A DNA stretch of 43,393 nt from Nitrospira sp. Its GTDB lineage: Bacteria > Nitrospirota > Nitrospiria > Nitrospirales > Nitrospiraceae. Positions 735 to 22,925 of the stretch are shown piece by piece. The notes under the pieces are model-generated. The model ran no database searches. It was given only the letters and a program-made list of their open reading frames with translations, and had not been told where the DNA came from. Where the stretch lies: contig JAHFEW010000033.1 in assembly GCA_023248215.1 (NCBI GenBank), positions 1 through 43,393 on the forward strand. The letters are read 5' to 3'. A program made the translations under genes and the position numbers. The number at the start of each line of letters is the position of its first letter. Positions within the stretch are counted from its first letter, which is position 1.

Positions 735-2186
735 TCACTGCTGAAGGCGTGAGTGATGGGAGCGCCTGACATACAGGACCGCGTCTCCTGCGAAGGGAGC
801 CACGAGCCTGACTCGTCCAGACGGCAGGCGTTTCTGCTCGACCTCTGTGCGATCGAGCTGTGGATTGAACCATTCCACCAGGAATGCACCGGAGAAATGC
901 TGGAGATCGAGCTCGATGCTCGCGGGATTCTCCGAGACGCCGCTGGAGGGCGCATAGATGAGATAGGCCTGACCCGGATCAACCAAACAATACCGGCTTG
1001 AGCAGAGGTCGCTCCGTGGAGTCATGATTTGGAGCGGGATGCGGTCCGCGTAACGTTTCGTCTGGCCGAGCGACAGCAGTACACCCTCGCGAGACTCTCT
1101 CACCTGCTCGTAATATTCGGGATGGGTCGCGGGATCGTACGGATCCATATAGATGGGGTTGAGCCCCCGCATAAAACTTTTCCACACCCAGTCACTGGTC
1201 CCTCCAACTCCCCACAGATGATCCGTATCATTGATGATGACTTTGCGCCCGTCATTGGGAGGTGGATCGTCTCGGTAGGCATACTCGGCCGTATAGGGAG
1301 CCGGGAGCGTCGGGGACACCGCCTCTGCCTTGGACGCCCAGAGGTCCTCTTCCCTATTTCCCCAGGGTGCACTGAACAGCACAGGATGTTGTTTCGGCTT
1401 GGTCGCCTCGTAGTCGTGAATCACCGCGACCAAATGCTCCTGCCATGGCACCGAAGTCGACGTGCTCTCGTTCGCAATTTCATAGACCACGTTGTCGAAG
1501 CGATTCACCGCATCCACCACATGGCGCACAAACCGTTCCTGCCATTCCGTCACAGCAGCACCCATCAGCTCATGGGTCTCGGTTCCTTCTCCATCTCCGT
1601 CGGGGTCCCCGTCTATGCCGTTGATGTTATTGGCCCGATGAAATGGATGGAACTCCCAGGGATTCTCCGGTCTGTCGGGTGACTTCCGCTCAATCCCCCA
1701 CCCTTGAAACAACATGACGGCGACATAGATGCCGTGTTGACCAGCCTCCTGCACTCGTGCCGCCAACCGATCGAAAAACACTGGATTCATTTGGCTCACA
1801 TCGAACTTTAACTTCCCGTCCAAGGCGAGCCCTGGTCCTGTCCGTAGGTACGGCAGAGGTTCCGAGAGCGCCTCCTCCTGACGCCAGAGCCGGAAAAAGT
1901 TTAAATGATACCGCTCTAGGAAATGCACATATCTGCTGTAGTCAAAGGGAACCTGTTCTTTATCCGAAACAGCGTCTTGCAGATTCCTCCAGGTATGGGA
2001 ACCGACGAGATAGACGACTTTGCCCGCCCCGTCGCTAAAGTACCGGGGGTTCACCGAATCGGCCCGGAGAGGTCCAACGGCCGGACCAATGGCCGTAACG
2101 GCAGACATCCTGACCTCGCTGCAGGCGAGGACCGTCAGTGAGAACACTATACTCGCGAGCCATTCGCATATGGTTCTGAAACGCAT
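735..2186 (-). CDS. Exported DUF4038-type glycoside-hydrolase-like lipoprotein
   Basis: This 483-residue protein starts with a hydrophobic signal segment ending in VLAC (Cys22), which suits a lipoprotein although Leu at -2 is not ideal. Residues about 45-400 look like the TIM barrel of the DUF4038/apiosidase-like (GH140-related) group: GSHTWRNLQD near 62, LNFFRLWRQEEA near 95, and VVYEIANES with a likely acid/base Glu at 240. An Asp-rich loop around 190-203 (GIDGDPDGDGEGTE) resembles a calcium-binding loop. The last 80 residues look like the beta domain called putative collagen-binding in this family (DLQHFSGAFLVEWFNP). The expected role is cleavage of a plant- or microbe-derived polysaccharide at the cell surface, but the substrate is not visible. 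There is no sugar transporter nearby. Confidence 0.72.
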   Translation of the reverse strand: MRFRTICEWLASIVFSLTVLACSEVRMSAVTAIGPAVGPLRADSVNPRYFSDGAGKVVYLVGSHTWRNLQDAVSDKEQVPFDYSRYVHFLERYHLNFFRLWRQEEALSEPLPYLRTGPGLALDGKLKFDVSQMNPVFFDRLAARVQEAGQHGIYVAVMLFQGWGIERKSPDRPENPWEFHPFHRANNINGIDGDPDGDGEGTETHELMGAAVTEWQERFVRHVVDAVNRFDNVVYEIANESTSTSVPWQEHLVAVIHDYEATKPKQHPVLFSAPWGNREEDLWASKAEAVSPTLPAPYTAEYAYRDDPPPNDGRKVIINDTDHLWGVGGTSDWVWKSFMRGLNPIYMDPYDPATHPEYYEQVRESREGVLLSLGQTKRYADRIPLQIMTPRSDLCSSRYCLVDPGQAYLIYAPSSGVSENPASIELDLQHFSGAFLVEWFNPQLDRTEVEQKRLPSGRVRLVAPFAGDAVLYVRRSHHSRLQQ

Positions 2187-2378
2187 TTCTCAGTGATTCT
2201 CCAACTGGTTGGTGGATTCAGAATAGCTTGGGCTAGGCATGCGAGTGTGGCAGGGATTCGATGTCCGGCCTGTAGCCTTCGTGAGCGCTTCAGCATACGC
2301 GCTCAGCCCCACGTGAGCCAAGAGCGGACAGGCGTCGGGTCGCTCGTATCGCTGAATTGGAAACACTCGAACGAGCCT

Positions 2379-2891
2379 CTATTGCACGTTGTTGGCCAGG
2401 ATAAAGAGCTCCTGCTCCAGCGTGCGAAAGAATTGCTGATAGGGCTCGGGGGACTCGATGGCCTTGAGATAATACGGCGCGCTGGCACGCACCACCAGTT
2501 GCGTGTCTCCGCGCGGCCGGACGGTGGCATTGAGGCGGACCAGATCGCTCCGGTGATAAAACGCCCCCCAACTCCGGAACTGCCTGCTTAGGATCAGGAG
2601 CCCGTCGTCTCGGTACGTATAGTAGGACGGATCGTCCAATTGCGGGGCTTCATAATCCTCGAACTTCTTGCCGGACACGATACCCAATGCTTCATCCAAT
2701 ACTTCGACGGCGAAACCTACATCTTGAAATGTCGAGACGACCGCCTGAATGGTTTTGAGACGGTCGGTGGTGTCGAACATCCGGCATCGGGCAGCACGCA
2801 CTTTGACCTGGCTGGCTTCGGACTGCCAGAGCTGATCGCGCGACTCCCATTGGTTCTCATGTCGCCATTCATAGGGCGAGCAGCCGGTTGC
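2379..2891 (-). repeat. Direct repeat copy 1 (about 513 bp) flanking the sensor kinase
   Basis: This stretch matches 6102-6613 in the same orientation. By eye there are about 20 substitutions plus one indel, roughly 96% identity, and nine of the substitutions fall in the 30 bases nearest 2379. The match ends sharply at 2891/6613, at the codon for the Gly-Cys of the lipobox. Together with copy 2 it brackets the hybrid kinase gene. Confidence 0.9.
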
Positions 2892-3153
2892 TTTCGCCTC
2901 ATCCAGATTCTTGGCATCGAGGATTTGCGTGAGGAGCGCTTCGCCCTCCTCAGGCGCCGGACTCTTGGCGTCCCAGTCGAGCGCGGGCGAGGGTGACGAA
3001 TCGTAGCGGTAGGTCTTGGCCGGCTTTTTCTTCTTGAACTGCGCCTGCGTCCCGACTTCCGGCCCGCATGAGGGTCTTCGCCTCGGGATGTTTATACGGC
3101 GCAGTCTGGTTGCCACCGGACGCATGCTTCTTGCTCTTTGTACTGCGGGCCAC
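2379..3153 (-). pseudogene. Chimera: DNA-methyltransferase N-terminus fused to a lipoprotein tail
   Basis: Reading from 3153, the first about 28 residues (MARSTKSKKHASGG..., ending KHPEAKTLM) are in one frame. The sequence resumes in the next frame as RPEVGTQAQFKKKKPAKTYR and on to DAKSPAPEEGEALL. Removing one base of the CCC run at 3063-3065 joins the two. This pattern recalls the N-terminus of site-specific adenine DNA methyltransferases of the type III Mod kind; that is recollection, not a search. At about 2891 the methyltransferase part stops at ...DEAKA and runs straight into TGCSPYEW, the mature part of a lipoprotein duplicated at 6102-6703. An open frame of 248 codons (ATG at 3125) spans the fusion, but without a signal peptide or catalytic motifs. 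It is most likely a non-functional recombination product, although a chimeric protein could be made. Confidence 0.6.
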
Positions 3154-3514
3154 GTCGCTCCCCCTGCTTATCTCTGTTCAGGCTGCGGCAGCATACCCTT
3201 TTACACACAGGACGACAATCGCAAGTTGCTCCTCTCGCGGCTGCCACAACATGGACTGGCTGAATGGTACGGAACGCGGTGGGGCTACTCTACCGCGAAG
3301 ATGGGGGTCTGATGGCGCATGGATCGAGATGCGCAGAATTCAAGCTTTCCCTTCCCGCCCCTGACCTCGGATTGCGTTTGCGGTTCTTGTCCTGAAGGAG
3401 TAGCCTTTTATCGACTTCGGCACCTCGGGGGGGACTCGATGGCCGACCTGCCTCTCTTCCAGATGATCCTCGCCGCCCTGTCTCTCACGCTTTTCATCTC
3501 GACTAGGAGCAACC
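3154..3514. other. Gene-free stretch upstream of the hybrid kinase
   Basis: These 361 bases lie between the divergent methyltransferase/lipoprotein chimera and the kinase gene. No convincing coding frame, RNA gene or terminator is seen; the short open frames here have no ribosome site or family resemblance. The kinase promoter presumably lies here, but no clear -35/-10 pair stands out. Confidence 0.5.
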
Positions 3515-6127
3515 ATGTCTCCTGAAGCCGTTGATTCGTCATCCTACGATGCGTGGCGAAAGGCGTTCGCGAGAGACCGCTTGCGTACCCTCTATTACCT
3601 CGGCCTGACGGCCAATCCCGTCTTTCTCCTATCCGACCTGCTGTTCTATCGGGATCACCTGTCGACGCTCCTCACGATCCGAGCCATCCTGGAGATGGGC
3701 TTTCTCCTGGTGTTCTTCACCCTGGTGCGACGTCGTTCCGCGGTACCTCCACAAGTGGCGCTAATTTTATGGGTGCTGATCGGCAATCTGTGTATTGCAC
3801 AGATGACGGTACACTTGGGAGGTTTTACCTCCGCCTATTACAATGGGTTGAATCTGGTCTTCCTTGCAGCGGCGGTGATCGTCCCGGTCTCCTGGACCAG
3901 TCACTTGGCGGCCCAAGTCACCACCCTCCTCTATTACTATGGGATCAATCTTCTCCAGCCTCTGCCTGCCGGAGCAGACGCTGCTGCGTTGCAGAATTCC
4001 TTCTTCCTCGTCTGGACCTGCGTGGCCTGTCTCTTCTCGGCCTACCTCTACGAGACTTTGCAGGTCGCGGAATTCCAGGCGCGGCTGGCCGAACGCCGGA
4101 CGCGGGAAGAACTGGAACTGTCCCATCGCAAACTGTTGGAACTCGACCGCTTGAAGGATCAGTTCTTTGCCAATATCAACCACGAGCTTCGCACACCACT
4201 CACACTCAGCCTGGGGGCGTTCACCACCCTGTTAAAAACTCCGTTGCCAAAAGAATCAGAGGCCGTGGTGCGGTCGGGCCTGCGGAACACTTCGCGTTTG
4301 TTGTTCCTGATCAATGAGCTACTGGAGCTCGCCCGGTTCGAAAGCGGACGGGCCGACCTTCGCACCGCTTGCGTCGACCTGGCCGCACTCATCACACACG
4401 TGGCCGCCAATTTTGAGTCCTCGGAACGGCGGCGGATCTTCATGGACGGTATGTCCACCCCCGTGCCGGCGCACGTGGACGTTCGCAAGATGACCAAGGT
4501 CCTCTCAAATGTATTGATGAACGCGTTTAAGTTCAGCGATCCAGAGCAGGGCAAGGTCTGGATCTCATTGGCGTCCGAGCAGAGACAGGTCTCCATCACC
4601 ATCCGGGATAACGGAATCGGCATTCCCGAAAATCAGTTCGAGCGTATTTTCGACCGGTTCACCCAAGTGGAGGGCCAGGCCACGAGGAGATTTGAAGGCA
4701 GCGGGATCGGGTTGGCGCTGGCGAAGGAAATCGTGACGCTCCATGGCGGGCAGATCGCCGTACAGAGCACCGTCGGGGAAGGATCGACTTTTACCGTGAC
4801 CCTGCCGCGGGGTAACGTGGATGCCGTCCCCATAGTTCCCATCGATGAAGAAGACGCGCCGGCGCCTCTTACCTCCGGGGAAGACCCGCCGATCGATGAA
4901 GACCAGGAATCGATGCGAGACGTGGCAAGTCGTGACCAGCCCGTGATTCTGGTGGTGGATGACAATGCCGATATGCGCGCCTACCTCACGCGCTTGTTGG
5001 CCGACGAGTATCGGGTGATCACCGCCGGTGACGGAGAGGACGCGTTGCAGAAGGCACGGCGGCTGCTGCCGGCGCTGGTGGTGGCGGATATCATGATGCC
5101 CATTATGAGCGGACATGATCTGTTGAAGGCGATTCGTTGCGATGACGCGCTTCGCGCGACGCCGGTTATTTTACTCACGGCGCGAGCGGGAACCGAAGCG
5201 CGCGTGGAGAGCCTGGAGGCGGGAGCAGACGACTATGTGAGCAAGCCCTTCAATGAGGAAGAACTCCTGGCGCGGATCAAAAATCAATTGCGGATTCATG
5301 GTCAGGAACGAGAGCTCGAAGCCAAGGCGACTCAGCTGCAACACCTGTATTCGAAGCTGGAAACCATCAACACAGAACTGCGCGAACTCAGCCTGCGGAA
5401 GTCCGAATTTGTGTCGATCGTATCCCATGACCTGCGAACACCACTGGCGGCCATCGGCGGATTCGTCGACAACTTACTGGACTGCATCGGCGGACCTCTC
5501 ACCGACAAACAGCGGAGGTATCTCGACCGAATCAAGAGCAACATCGGCCGGCTGGTTCGAATGATTAACGACCTGCTGGACCTGTCAAAAATCGAGGCCG
5601 GGACCATGCGGCTCGACTCCAAGACATTGGTGATCGCCGACTTGGCCGAGACGGTCGTGGACAATCTTCACATGCTGGCGCGGGAAAAACACCTTTCCTT
5701 GCGAGCGACCACCGCGGACAAGCACCTCGTCGTGCGGGGAGATCCGGACAAACTCACGCAGGTATTGACCAACCTCATTCAGAATGCCTGCAAATTCACA
5801 CCGCCCGGCGGCGAGGTGCGGCTCGACATCGATGCCGAGGAAGCCGGATTCGTCCGACTCTGCGTGGCCGATACGGGCTGCGGGATCCCGCCGGAAGAAG
5901 TGCCGCACGTGTTTGAGAAGTTCTATCGGGGGACCTCGTCCCATGGCGAAGCGCGAGGGGCCGGGCTGGGGCTGGCGATTGCCAAGCATTTTGTGGAACT
6001 ACAGCAGGGCCGCATCTGGGTGGAGAGTGCACCGGGGCAAGGCAGTCGATTTTATCTCACCCTTCCGCTGGCTCCGCGCGTGAATGCTGAGTTGGAAGAG
6101 GCTACTGAACGGCATTGGCCTGGATGA
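3515..6127 (+). CDS. Membrane hybrid sensor kinase, HK-REC-HK architecture
   Basis: This 870-residue protein begins with about six hydrophobic segments (residues 24-180), followed by a charged linker. A first kinase unit follows: HisKA with NHELRTP (His223), then ATPase boxes DNGIGIP (365-371) and GSGIGLALAK. A receiver domain covers about 477-595 (VDDNADMRAY, phosphoacceptor Asp525 in ADIMMP, Lys577 in SKPF). After a coiled linker comes a second kinase unit: SHDLRTP (His638), DTGCGIP (786-792), GAGLGLAIAKHF. No DNA-binding output is present and no response-regulator gene is adjacent, so it probably signals to an unlinked partner. The stop overlaps by 26 bases the 3' end of the convergent lipoprotein pseudogene. 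It lies between two 513-bp direct repeats, so mobility or loss by recombination is possible. The ATG is preceded by AGGAGC. Confidence 0.93.
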   Translation: MSPEAVDSSSYDAWRKAFARDRLRTLYYLGLTANPVFLLSDLLFYRDHLSTLLTIRAILEMGFLLVFFTLVRRRSAVPPQVALILWVLIGNLCIAQMTVHLGGFTSAYYNGLNLVFLAAAVIVPVSWTSHLAAQVTTLLYYYGINLLQPLPAGADAAALQNSFFLVWTCVACLFSAYLYETLQVAEFQARLAERRTREELELSHRKLLELDRLKDQFFANINHELRTPLTLSLGAFTTLLKTPLPKESEAVVRSGLRNTSRLLFLINELLELARFESGRADLRTACVDLAALITHVAANFESSERRRIFMDGMSTPVPAHVDVRKMTKVLSNVLMNAFKFSDPEQGKVWISLASEQRQVSITIRDNGIGIPENQFERIFDRFTQVEGQATRRFEGSGIGLALAKEIVTLHGGQIAVQSTVGEGSTFTVTLPRGNVDAVPIVPIDEEDAPAPLTSGEDPPIDEDQESMRDVASRDQPVILVVDDNADMRAYLTRLLADEYRVITAGDGEDALQKARRLLPALVVADIMMPIMSGHDLLKAIRCDDALRATPVILLTARAGTEARVESLEAGADDYVSKPFNEEELLARIKNQLRIHGQERELEAKATQLQHLYSKLETINTELRELSLRKSEFVSIVSHDLRTPLAAIGGFVDNLLDCIGGPLTDKQRRYLDRIKSNIGRLVRMINDLLDLSKIEAGTMRLDSKTLVIADLAETVVDNLHMLAREKHLSLRATTADKHLVVRGDPDKLTQVLTNLIQNACKFTPPGGEVRLDIDAEEAGFVRLCVADTGCGIPPEEVPHVFEKFYRGTSSHGEARGAGLGLAIAKHFVELQQGRIWVESAPGQGSRFYLTLPLAPRVNAELEEATERHWPG

Positions 6128-6613
6128 ACAGCACCTGCTCCAGCGTGCGAAAGAATTGCTGATAGGGCTCGGGGGACTCGATGGCTCTGAGGTAATACGG
6201 CGCGCTGGCACGCACCATCAGTTGCGTGTCTCCGCGCGGCCGGACGGTGGCATTGAGGCGGACCAGATCGTCCGGTGATAAAACGCCCCCCAACTCCGGA
6301 ACTGCCTGGTTAGGATCAGGAGCCCGTCGTCTCGGTACGTATAGTAGGACGGGTCGCCCAATTGCGGGGCTTCATAATCCTCGAACTTCTTGCCGGACAC
6401 GATGCCCAATGCTTCATCCAATACTTCGACGGCGAAACCTACATCCTGAAATGTCGAGACGACCGCCTGAATGGTTTTGAGACGGTCGGTGGTGTCGAAC
6501 ATCCGGCATTGGGCAGCACGCACTTTGACCTGGCTGGCTTCGGACTGCCAGAGCTGATCGCGCGACTCCCATTGGTTCTCATGTCACCATTCATAGGGCG
6601 AGCAGCCGGTTGC
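6102..6613 (-). repeat. Direct repeat copy 2 (about 512 bp) flanking the sensor kinase
   Basis: This is the partner of 2379-2891, in the same orientation. It carries the last part of the lipoprotein pseudogene and includes the last 26 bases of the kinase frame. It is one base shorter than copy 1 because of the deletion near 6270. Sequence beyond 6613 is the native signal-peptide region, so this copy is probably the original locus and copy 1 the derived one. Confidence 0.9.
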
Positions 6614-6703
6614 CACGCAGACCAGCGTCAGAAAGCAAGAGACGAGCCGGCATGTGCGGAAAGCTGCGAGCAGGCATGTCATGGCGGCAGATGTCGTACT
6701 CAC
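6102..6703 (-). pseudogene. Broken small lipoprotein gene (nonsense codon plus frameshift)
   Basis: A GTG at 6703, with AAGGA upstream, or the ATG at 6682 would start a good lipoprotein signal peptide ending VATGC. Five codons later comes TGA, where repeat copy 1 has CGA (Arg). Downstream, the frame reads AAQCRMFDTTDRLKTIQAVV and on to SWGAFYHR, where one C is missing near 6270 relative to copy 1. The tail LVRLNATVRPRGD...QANAVQ then lies in another frame. Both lesions disrupt the protein. It belongs to the same family as the genes at 6707-7144 and 7157-7822 (pattern R-A-x-x-R-x-F-D near the start, Q-D-x-G-F in the middle, QQFF near the end), and follows them in one minus-strand row, so it was probably the third cistron of an operon. 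Confidence 0.78.
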
Positions 6704-6706
6704 GCC

Positions 6707-7144
6707 CTAGTCCTTTGTCAGAAATAGCGAGTGCTTCACCGATGCAAAGAAGTTTTGGTGCACCTTGGGGTCTTCGATCGGCTTGTTGTTGTATATGGCA
6801 TTGGCGCGAATCATCGTCTTACCGTCGTCTTGTGGACGCACAGTGACCGTCACGCCGAGTACGTCGTCATAATTTGGCTCGGCGAATCTGGCCGCCGTCA
6901 CCAGACCCAACGGTTCATTGGCGCGTTCGATGATGAATCCCAAGTCTTGCAAGGCCGCGATGACGCCGCGCATGGCGACCGTGCGATCCTTAACCTCAAA
7001 CGTGCGGGTCTGTGCGCTTCGGATTTTCATTTGCGCATCGGTCGACGAAAAGAGCTCCTTGCGCGGTTCCGGCGCCGTACAACCGTACAGCATGAAGCAT
7101 CCCGTCAGAATCACACCTGCCCCGGCAACCTGTGTCCAGCTCAT
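6707..7144 (-). CDS. Small paralogous lipoprotein, family A member 1
   Basis: This 145-residue protein has a signal peptide with lipobox MLYGC (Cys22), predicting acylation and an envelope location; Lol sorting to the outer membrane is plausible because no Asp follows the Cys. The mature part has RSAQTRTFEVKDR, then ALQDLGFIIE, then a hydrophilic strand-rich end (TVTVRPQDDGKTMIRANA) and HQNFFASVKHSLFL. These blocks line up with the pseudogene at 6102-6703 and with the larger gene at 7157-7822, so all arose by duplication. The stop lies 3 bases before the GTG that could start the pseudogene, and its own start lies 12 bases after the stop of 7157-7822, so the row reads as one operon. Function unknown; no catalytic motif is seen. 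Confidence 0.8.
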   Translation of the reverse strand: MSWTQVAGAGVILTGCFMLYGCTAPEPRKELFSSTDAQMKIRSAQTRTFEVKDRTVAMRGVIAALQDLGFIIERANEPLGLVTAARFAEPNYDDVLGVTVTVRPQDDGKTMIRANAIYNNKPIEDPKVHQNFFASVKHSLFLTKD

Positions 7145-7156
7145 GAGTCCTCGCAG

Positions 7157-7822
7157 TTAAATCGTGTACGGCTCCAAGAAAACGGCCTTGGAGAGCTTCG
7201 CAAAAAATTGCTGGTAAATTTCAGGATCGCGGATCATTTCCATTTTCTGTTCACCGGGCGGGATGTAATTGCGGTCGGCCTGCCCCTCTCCCTTCCACAC
7301 CGCTCGATAGAACATGATCCGGACTTCCTGCCGCGAGCCGTCCGGATTCAACGGGCGCGTCACGATGGTCGCGGCGACCTTCTGGTGCAGGTCGACCGGC
7401 ATCATGACATTTCCGAGAGAGAGGAGCCACACCAAGAGCCGGTTGAGATACTGGTCATACTCGCGCGCGCTGCGCTCTTTCGCCGCGCGCAGGAAACCAA
7501 CTTCCCGCACGCTTTCTTCAACTTGAAAGCCGAGATCCTGCAACGAGGCGGCTGAGGCCGATAGTAACTCCTTGTCGTTCGCCGTATCGAAAAGGCGAGT
7601 TTGCATCGCCCGATTGGCGTTACTCTCTGGCGAGAGCTGGAATAACTCCGTCGGTTGCGTCTGCTGCACACAGCCACTGACCAAGGCCGGCAGTAGGAAT
7701 GCGAGTAAAGGCAGCGTCCATCTACCCGATGGAAATCCTGGGAGATGAACACCGGAGGCCCAGCCGGTTCCCGCGACATCGCTTGTACAGACTCTTCTCT
7801 TCAGGCTGTTCAAAATGGTCAT
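7157..7822 (-). CDS. Paralogous lipoprotein, family A member 2
   Basis: This 221-residue frame has a hydrophobic stretch WTLPLLAFLLPALVSGC, giving a lipobox with Cys51. The n-region before it is unusually long (about 35 residues). The only ATG, at 7822, lies inside a dispersed intergenic repeat (7807-7926), so the first dozen residues are repeat-derived and the annotated start may not be the ancestral one. No in-frame GTG is seen closer to the hydrophobic segment. The mature part aligns with its neighbours (MQTRLFDTAND, SLQDLGFQVEE, then YQQFFAKLSKAVFLEP) and adds an insert around 120-150 (NRLLVWLLSLGNVMMP) that may contact a membrane. The role is unknown; its position next to a BamE-like lipoprotein suggests envelope maintenance. 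Confidence 0.72.
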   Translation of the reverse strand: MTILNSLKRRVCTSDVAGTGWASGVHLPGFPSGRWTLPLLAFLLPALVSGCVQQTQPTELFQLSPESNANRAMQTRLFDTANDKELLSASAASLQDLGFQVEESVREVGFLRAAKERSAREYDQYLNRLLVWLLSLGNVMMPVDLHQKVAATIVTRPLNPDGSRQEVRIMFYRAVWKGEGQADRNYIPPGEQKMEMIRDPEIYQQFFAKLSKAVFLEPYTI

Positions 7823-7926
7823 CCAGCGAGGCCGAGTAAGCGAGAGCCCGAGGCATACGTTTTTGCGTACGTTGAGGAGGTGAGCGACGCGAGACCAAAG
7901 CTGGGGACCATTTTCAGCAGCCTATT
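7807..7926 (+). repeat. Dispersed intergenic element, copy R1
   Basis: This approximately 120-base stretch resembles 22741-22925. Shared blocks in order are TGTTCAAAA, GGTC-CCAGCG-GGCCG, AAGCGA, GAGGCATAC, CGTACGT-GAG, GACGCG, CAAAGCTGG, and TTTCA-CA-CCT. It lies between two minus-strand lipoprotein genes. Its far end abuts the stop codon of the BamE-like gene, and its near end supplies the ATG of the next gene. No open frame of its own is evident. It looks like a MITE- or REP-type element rather than a gene. Confidence 0.7.
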
Positions 7927-8323
7927 AGAATTGGGTGGAGTTGTAGGCAAAGTCCCGGACCTTTTTCTCTTCGTCGTACTTGATGATGGTGAGGGTGCGC
8001 TGACGCTGGGAGCTGGAGCGATCGCTGGAGTTGGTCCCCAGAATGATCAACCCGGCGTATGAGGAACTCGCGGTATCAACGCGATCGGTCGACACTTTGT
8101 CGTAAATCCAGACTTCACGGCGCCTATCGTCCGTGGTCACGATATTCGGCGAGCCCAAGAGTTCCGCCACCTGCGCGGCAGACATGCCGACATTGACCTC
8201 GCCTTGCACGCGCCCGACGCTCAGCCGGTCTTCCTTAATCTCCGCTTGCTTCCCACCGCAGCCGGTCCACCCCATCACGACACAGAGGCCCACCAGTACC
8301 AGTCCCCGTCGCACGTCTCTCAT
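7925..8323 (-). CDS. BamE/SmpA-like outer-membrane lipoprotein
   Basis: This 132-residue protein has a signal peptide with lipobox GWTGC (Cys22). The mature part has the BamE (SmpA/OmlA) pattern: VNVGMSAAQVAELLGSPNIV, a helix-turn followed by strand EVWIYDK, and a C-terminal strand LTIIKYDEEKKVRDFAY. Members of this fold scaffold the BAM complex or act as small envelope lipoproteins; the Ser-rich middle (SSSYAGLIILGTNSSDRSS) replaces the usual loop. It begins the minus-strand lipoprotein row at 6102-8323. With lolC/E and lnt elsewhere in the window, it adds to the envelope theme. The exact BAM role is not provable, since other BamE-fold lipoproteins exist. Confidence 0.75.
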   Translation of the reverse strand: MRDVRRGLVLVGLCVVMGWTGCGGKQAEIKEDRLSVGRVQGEVNVGMSAAQVAELLGSPNIVTTDDRRREVWIYDKVSTDRVDTASSSYAGLIILGTNSSDRSSSQRQRTLTIIKYDEEKKVRDFAYNSTQF

Positions 8324-22690: not shown

Positions 22691-22740
22691 ATCGATATAC
22701 CCATGCCTCTCGCTAGTCCCTCACAACTCTTCTTTGCAAG

Positions 22741-22925
22741 ATGTTCAAAAGGGTCGCCAGCGCGGCCGCAGCAAGCGAAGAGGTGAGGCATACTCCAGCC
22801 GTACGTCGAGCCTCTGAGGTTCACGACGCGCTGAATAAAGCGCGTCACGTTTGTGAACGCCGGCGAGACGGTGAGCCGGCAGTGTCTTGCGAGAACAAAG
22901 CTGGAGGCCGTTTCAACATCCTGCT
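22741..22925 (+). repeat. Dispersed intergenic element, copy R2, between trpB and trpA
   Basis: This about 185-base stretch shares its outer parts with 7807-7926 (TGTTCAAAA, CCAGCG-GGCCG, AAGCGA, GAGGCATAC, CGTACGT-GAG, GACGCG; then CAAAGCTGG and CATCCTGCTA). In the middle it has about 60 extra bases. The extra region can form GACGCGC...GCGCGTC flanked by GTTCAC...GTGAAC, and then GCCGGC...GCCGGC. The end abuts the trpB stop codon. It has no coding frame. Confidence 0.72.

Follow-up and report, generated by a model that had tools for sequence, protein, structure and literature searches.

A probable methyltransferase–lipoprotein pseudogene at a rearranged Nitrospira locus

Organization of the chimeric reading frame

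The stretch of DNA analysed here (43,393 nucleotides, hereafter the window) is the entire contig C29 of a 199-contig draft genome with 3.93% contamination, which clusters with Nitrospira. It was compared with 28 other genomes of the genus and, for matches of the DNA-methyltransferase (MTase), with 175 genomes of the family. On the minus strand, the mechanically delimited ORF 2379–3125 encodes 248 aa. The initial annotation regarded this ORF as an MTase N-terminus fused to the mature part of a lipoprotein, with a frame that crosses the fusion from position 3125 without a stop, and this description proved to be correct: the similarity to the lipoprotein ends at the GCA codon at 2891 and that to the MTase begins there. 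At the junction (2889–2893, minus strand), the sense sequence of the MTase ends with GATGAGGCGAAAGCA and the lipoprotein part begins with ACCGGCTGC. The MTase-like share is smaller than had been supposed, as approximately 58 in-frame residues precede the 170 residues of the lipoprotein, while the first approximately 21 residues are read from the MTase gene out of frame; an internal ATG in another frame is the sole entry into the ORF, thus these residues are not MTase sequence. The “short homology” noticed earlier at the junction (GCAACCGGCTGC) is merely the last stretch common to the two lipoprotein copies of the window and not a microhomology between the parental sequences. The exact microhomology at the joint does not exceed about 3–4 bases (GCA/GGCA), where the MTase side was deduced from the relatives (...AAGGC[A/C/T]GCCGC...).

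The sequence ahead of the junction (2892–3153, minus strand) corresponds to about codons 1–88 of a Mod-type adenine DNA-methyltransferase gene, including the original GTG start at 3153–3151, a few bases upstream of which a Shine-Dalgarno-like GGGGGAG lies at 3164–3158 on the minus strand. The fragment shows 73–80% protein identity (E 1e-35 to 1e-38) and 79–83% DNA identity to the genes of four genomes of the genus (G004, G021, G020, and G002), where they form intact open frames of 791–1096 aa, and further intact genes were found in other genera of the family. The G004 gene (locus L040) encodes an N6_N4_Mtase domain (PF01555), the catalytic domain beginning near residue 160–190, and a BPTD_3080-family restriction gene lies behind it; the PADLOC models class this MTase as type III. 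The window fragment stops before this domain, and PF01555 is absent from the window ORF, for which no Pfam match was obtained above the cut-off. The one-base insertion proposed in the CCC at 3063–3065 (GGG in the sense strand, which is the minus strand) was verified by the intact relatives, all four of which read CTCATGCGGCCGGA, while the window reads CTCATGCGGGCCGGA with an extra G. Because of this insertion, which shifts the frame with respect to all intact relatives, the own GTG start of the MTase at 3153 is out of frame and leads into a dead end of 67 aa (2950–3153, minus strand).

Neither the remaining body of the MTase nor a second copy of it was found in the same genome, and no functional MTase was detected elsewhere in it, only distant MTase matches on other contigs. 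The cognate BPTD_3080-type Res gene is also absent, just a partial match of 39–52% being found on another contig. The MTase–lipoprotein fusion occurred in none of the 28 other genomes of the genus and was not seen among the MTase matches in the 175 family genomes, so a normal, conserved fusion family could be ruled out.

N-terminal stubs of the MTase recur in Nitrospiraceae. In four genomes (L067 in G142, L068 in G128, L074 in G072, and L076 in G052) an N-terminal stub of approximately 157 codons is joined to an HNH-nuclease gene, at the same position in each, and in G142 and G072 the two overlap by 4 bases (ATGA). An intact and strongly conserved stub occurs in G142, G072, and G128, with an omega of 0.04–0.07 at dS 0.7–1.0, and the dS of the HNH gene for the same three pairs is 0.6–0.9. 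In G052 the stub is frameshifted, and the HNH gene is disrupted in G052 and G128. Since the omega of the stub is low and the dS of the HNH gene is similar to that of the stub, the joint looks old and the stub appears to be under selection, possibly as a functional stand-alone module. A further form was seen in G097 (L082), where a large internal deletion has brought both ends of the MTase, N- and C-terminal, into one open frame of 215 aa. It is conceivable, though very unlikely, that the N-terminal region is a portable module that functions without the catalytic body, is kept as a stand-alone gene overlapping an HNH nuclease and is re-used in the chimera. For the window gene in particular this is improbable, because only a part of the module is there and that part is frameshifted. 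The coupling of such a conserved N-domain stub to an HNH nuclease could be relevant to how modular defence genes are understood.

The two lipoprotein copies and their family

The sequence behind the junction is, as had been noticed, a duplicate of a lipoprotein gene: positions 2379–2891 (copy A) and 6102–6613 (within copy B) are 96% identical over 513 bases, far above chance. Copy A (minus strand) contains the lipoprotein body from ATGC to NNVQ with the stop codon at 2379–2381. It has kept the A-T-G-C lipobox, but the sequence upstream of it is that of the MTase, and neither a signal peptide nor a hydrophobic signal segment is present. Four missense changes of copy A (Q35R, G86D, T102S, and Q165L) could be polarised against 15 orthologues, and the position of Q35R is nearly invariant across phyla. 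The initial annotation recognized the duplication but missed that copy B is also dead, as well as the probable origin from the joining of two alleles. Copy B (6102–6682, minus strand) has an intact signal peptide and lipobox (MTCLLAAFRTCRLVSCFLTLVCVATGC) and carries two lesions, a nonsense TGA at 6584–6586, which is the tenth codon of the body, and the loss of one base between 6270 and 6271.

The initial annotation also put forward the possible production of a 248-residue cytoplasmic chimera. If so, the lipoprotein domain would have been captured by the MTase promoter and would work in the cytoplasm as part of an expressed fusion, for which the frame open from the ATG at 3125 and the stop-free body of copy A, as opposed to that of copy B, may be cited. 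However, the native start and the Shine-Dalgarno-like sequence lead out of frame, leaving translation to an unrelated internal ATG (3125), and the MTase contributes just a piece of its N-domain from ahead of the catalytic domain. The fusion is conserved in no relative, nearly invariant positions such as Q35 are substituted in copy A, and a scan of 2300–3600 gave no sigma-70-type promoter match, although this last point is weak evidence. Thus, the frame is open as claimed, but the production of the chimera is unlikely and a functional fusion is highly improbable.

The substitution pattern is in line with the decay of the copies. The differences between A and B comprise five nonsynonymous and five synonymous changes (omega 0.29), while 3:33 were counted in two close intact pairs (omega 0.02–0.03; Fisher p 0.007 against A–B). 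The branch of copy A alone showed 3:2 (p 0.017), and the contrast was weaker against the more distant pair G009–G015 (p 0.04). With such small counts, this test provides no more than support. An intact lipoprotein gene was found in 24 of the 28 other Nitrospira genomes, and the conserved 170-residue mature domain present in the chimera is 78–90% identical to the genus orthologues. Neither an intact nor a third copy was found in the genome of the window, which seems to have lost this lipoprotein by duplication and subsequent decay of both copies. The protein appears to be dispensable, since two complete genomes, G020 and G021, likewise lacked a match at the threshold applied.

Pfam and NCBIfam yielded no family for the lipoprotein bodies, including no match to Pfam BamC, and a profile search against PDB sequences gave nothing credible. 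The structure model of the lipoprotein part of the chimera was low in confidence (pLDDT 65.6), therefore the paralogue Lipo2 was modelled instead (pLDDT 83.8). The model has a helix-grip fold resembling the N-domain of BamC, and its top Foldseek match was E. coli BamC (E 4e-7), while other helix-grip proteins reached equal or higher Z. Tandem paralogous lipoproteins stand beside a BamE homologue in the window (6707–8323) and at the loci L107, L110, and L113, and BamE-like neighbours of the lipoprotein were seen in Nitrospira and at a planctomycete, a Nitrospinaceae, and a deltaproteobacterium locus. On the basis of the modelled fold, these proteins are candidates for a BamC-like family outside the beta/gamma-proteobacteria, in Nitrospirota, Desulfobacterota, Planctomycetota, and Nitrospinota. 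No publication on BamC in Planctomycetota turned up in a search of the literature.

Allelic forms of the locus and probable origin of the chimera

The genes around the two copies were compared with those of two relatives. A glycoside-hydrolase-like gene (GH; DUF6298/apiosidase-like, 735–2186, minus strand) lies beyond the 3′-end of copy A, and as a GH gene also follows the lipoprotein gene in G009, it marks copy A as having the 3′ context of the resident gene. Between the two copies, a hybrid histidine kinase of 870 aa is encoded on the plus strand (3515–6127), whose only orthologue within the genus, at a threshold of 1e-250, was found in G015. The kinase frame ends inside the 3′-end of copy B with a 26-base convergent overlap, and a similar convergent overlap is present in G015. 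The order of genes is SnoaL-GH-Lipo-Lipo2-Lipo3-BamE in G009, where kinase and MTase are absent, and SnoaL-kinase-Lipo-Lipo2-Lipo3-BamE in G015, where GH and MTase are absent. The window, with SnoaL-GH-LipoA::MTaseN-kinase-LipoB-Lipo2-Lipo3-BamE, contains both forms end to end.

The intergenic region that separates the kinase from the MTase start (3149–3514, plus strand) is homologous to G015 (L045) exactly as far as the MTase start codon, which is all that is left of the MTase beside the G015 kinase. Since the similarity stops at this point (3149 in the window), the sequence comparison suggests that the MTase was the divergent neighbour of the kinase in the ancestor of the kinase-type form. 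In the approximately 50 bases between SnoaL and the kinase region of G015, no MTase or Res match was found as a remnant of the R-M genes. This search gave one short match in L042, upstream of another gene. The GH-like gene of G009 (L044, 7734–9106) and the SnoaL-like gene of G015 (L045, 5056–5545) each appear split into two frames, so the flank seems to decay in the relatives as well. A dispersed repeat of about 70 bases, 80% identical, was also seen in the window (7791–7858 and 22726–22793).

The tails of the two copies could be assigned to the two forms. At most of the sites in codons 161–170 that discriminate G009 from G015, the G009 state is found in copy A and the G015 state in copy B, and the 3′ flanks agree with this assignment. 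Within the body, 79 of the 80 sites separating G009 from G015 have the same state in A and B. The tails thus go back to two alleles, and the bodies practically to one.

Considering these results, the chimera is very probably a non-functional pseudogene that arose from a rearrangement joining two allelic forms of one locus. The GH-type form would have had a single lipoprotein gene followed by the GH-like gene, as in G009. In the kinase-type form the lipoprotein gene would have faced the hybrid histidine kinase, as in G015, and the other flank of the kinase carried the divergent MTase gene of an R-M system. The lipoprotein gene of a GH-type chromosome would then have received a block of the latter form. 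One side is continuous with homologous lipoprotein sequence, as would be expected of a homologous crossover within or close to this gene, and the other is an illegitimate joint between about codon 88 of the MTase and the lipobox. The outcome would be the doubling of the lipoprotein body, where the copy reduced to the body follows the MTase stub and the one with the signal peptide follows the kinase, and then the decay of both. The MTase may have been cut back in the same event, either through homology-facilitated illegitimate recombination or because a truncated circle was integrated by a single crossover; alternatively, it was fully integrated and lost its body in a later deletion. The crossover, its order, and the timing of this step are what we infer from the comparison. 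A counterpoint to the pseudogene is that the 248-aa frame is still open, which the frame of a long-dead gene need not be. A genome with the immediate pre-rearrangement state was not found among those searched.

The order of events could also have been different. A single integration might have taken place long ago in a lineage common to the window and G015 (GH-LipoA-[Res-MTase]-kinase-LipoB), with separate deletions in the two lineages and gene conversion between LipoA and LipoB thereafter. This variant, the strongest competitor as regards the sequence of steps, ends in the same chimeric pseudogene. In its favour, the window and G015 have in common the 3′ overlap of kinase and lipoprotein as well as the sequence as far as the MTase start, the GH is absent from G015, and MTase bodies have repeatedly been lost in the family. 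However, A and B differ by approximately 2% over the longest part of the body, while the genome of the window differs from G015 by approximately 17% there, thus continual conversion would be required, and no intermediate was found. We regard this order as possible but less than probable.

As the two halves of the locus fit the gene orders of two different relatives and the genome is a contaminated draft in 199 contigs, a metagenomic mis-join of co-occurring GH-type and kinase-type strains at the 96%-identical lipoprotein repeat, which extends over 513 bases, was also considered. The odd joint is, however, outside the repeat and its 3–4 shared bases at most would not suffice as an overlap for an assembler. 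Moreover, the copies differ by 4%, and their tails represent two alleles in a consistent order on one contig. Such an artefact is therefore unlikely, but a mis-join or an indel error in the draft retains some probability.

If the rearrangement took place as proposed, the locus is a clean example of R-M gene loss and of the end-to-end joining of alleles, by which chimeric ORFs are formed that annotation pipelines may call hypothetical proteins, and it shows that duplication can lead to the loss of a gene conserved as a single copy in most Nitrospira genomes. The chimera itself is mainly useful as a record of this rearrangement.

Comparison with known systems

The N-terminal part of the chimera corresponds to the Mod-like MTase (type III in PADLOC) that is the partner of the BPTD_3080-family restriction enzyme (NF046055), with which its first 88 residues share 73–80% protein identity, but it differs in being a frameshifted N-terminal piece that has neither the N6_N4_Mtase domain nor a Res partner. 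The 170-residue body, with 78–90% identity to the genus orthologues, is that of the BamE-linked helix-grip (BamC-like) lipoproteins of Nitrospira, Desulfobacterota, and Planctomycetota, while the signal peptide is missing, the N-terminus is foreign, and conserved residues are changed.

Homology-facilitated illegitimate recombination relies on homology at one end and usually 3–10 bp of microhomology at the other, and in the E. coli study most integrants contained a duplication resulting from single-crossover integration, not a deletion (PMC3240628). A displaced partial gene originating from such an event was proposed for the effector–immunity arrays of the V. cholerae T6SS (PMC5361080). The window resembles these products in that one side is homologous, the other is an illegitimate joint, and a partial gene is displaced, as judged by the two-allele synteny and the assignment of the tails. 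It differs from them in that the event, including the crossover itself, was reconstructed by comparison, and in that the exact microhomology, as suggested by the MTase relatives, lies at the lower limit, with at most 3–4 bases as against the usual 3–10.
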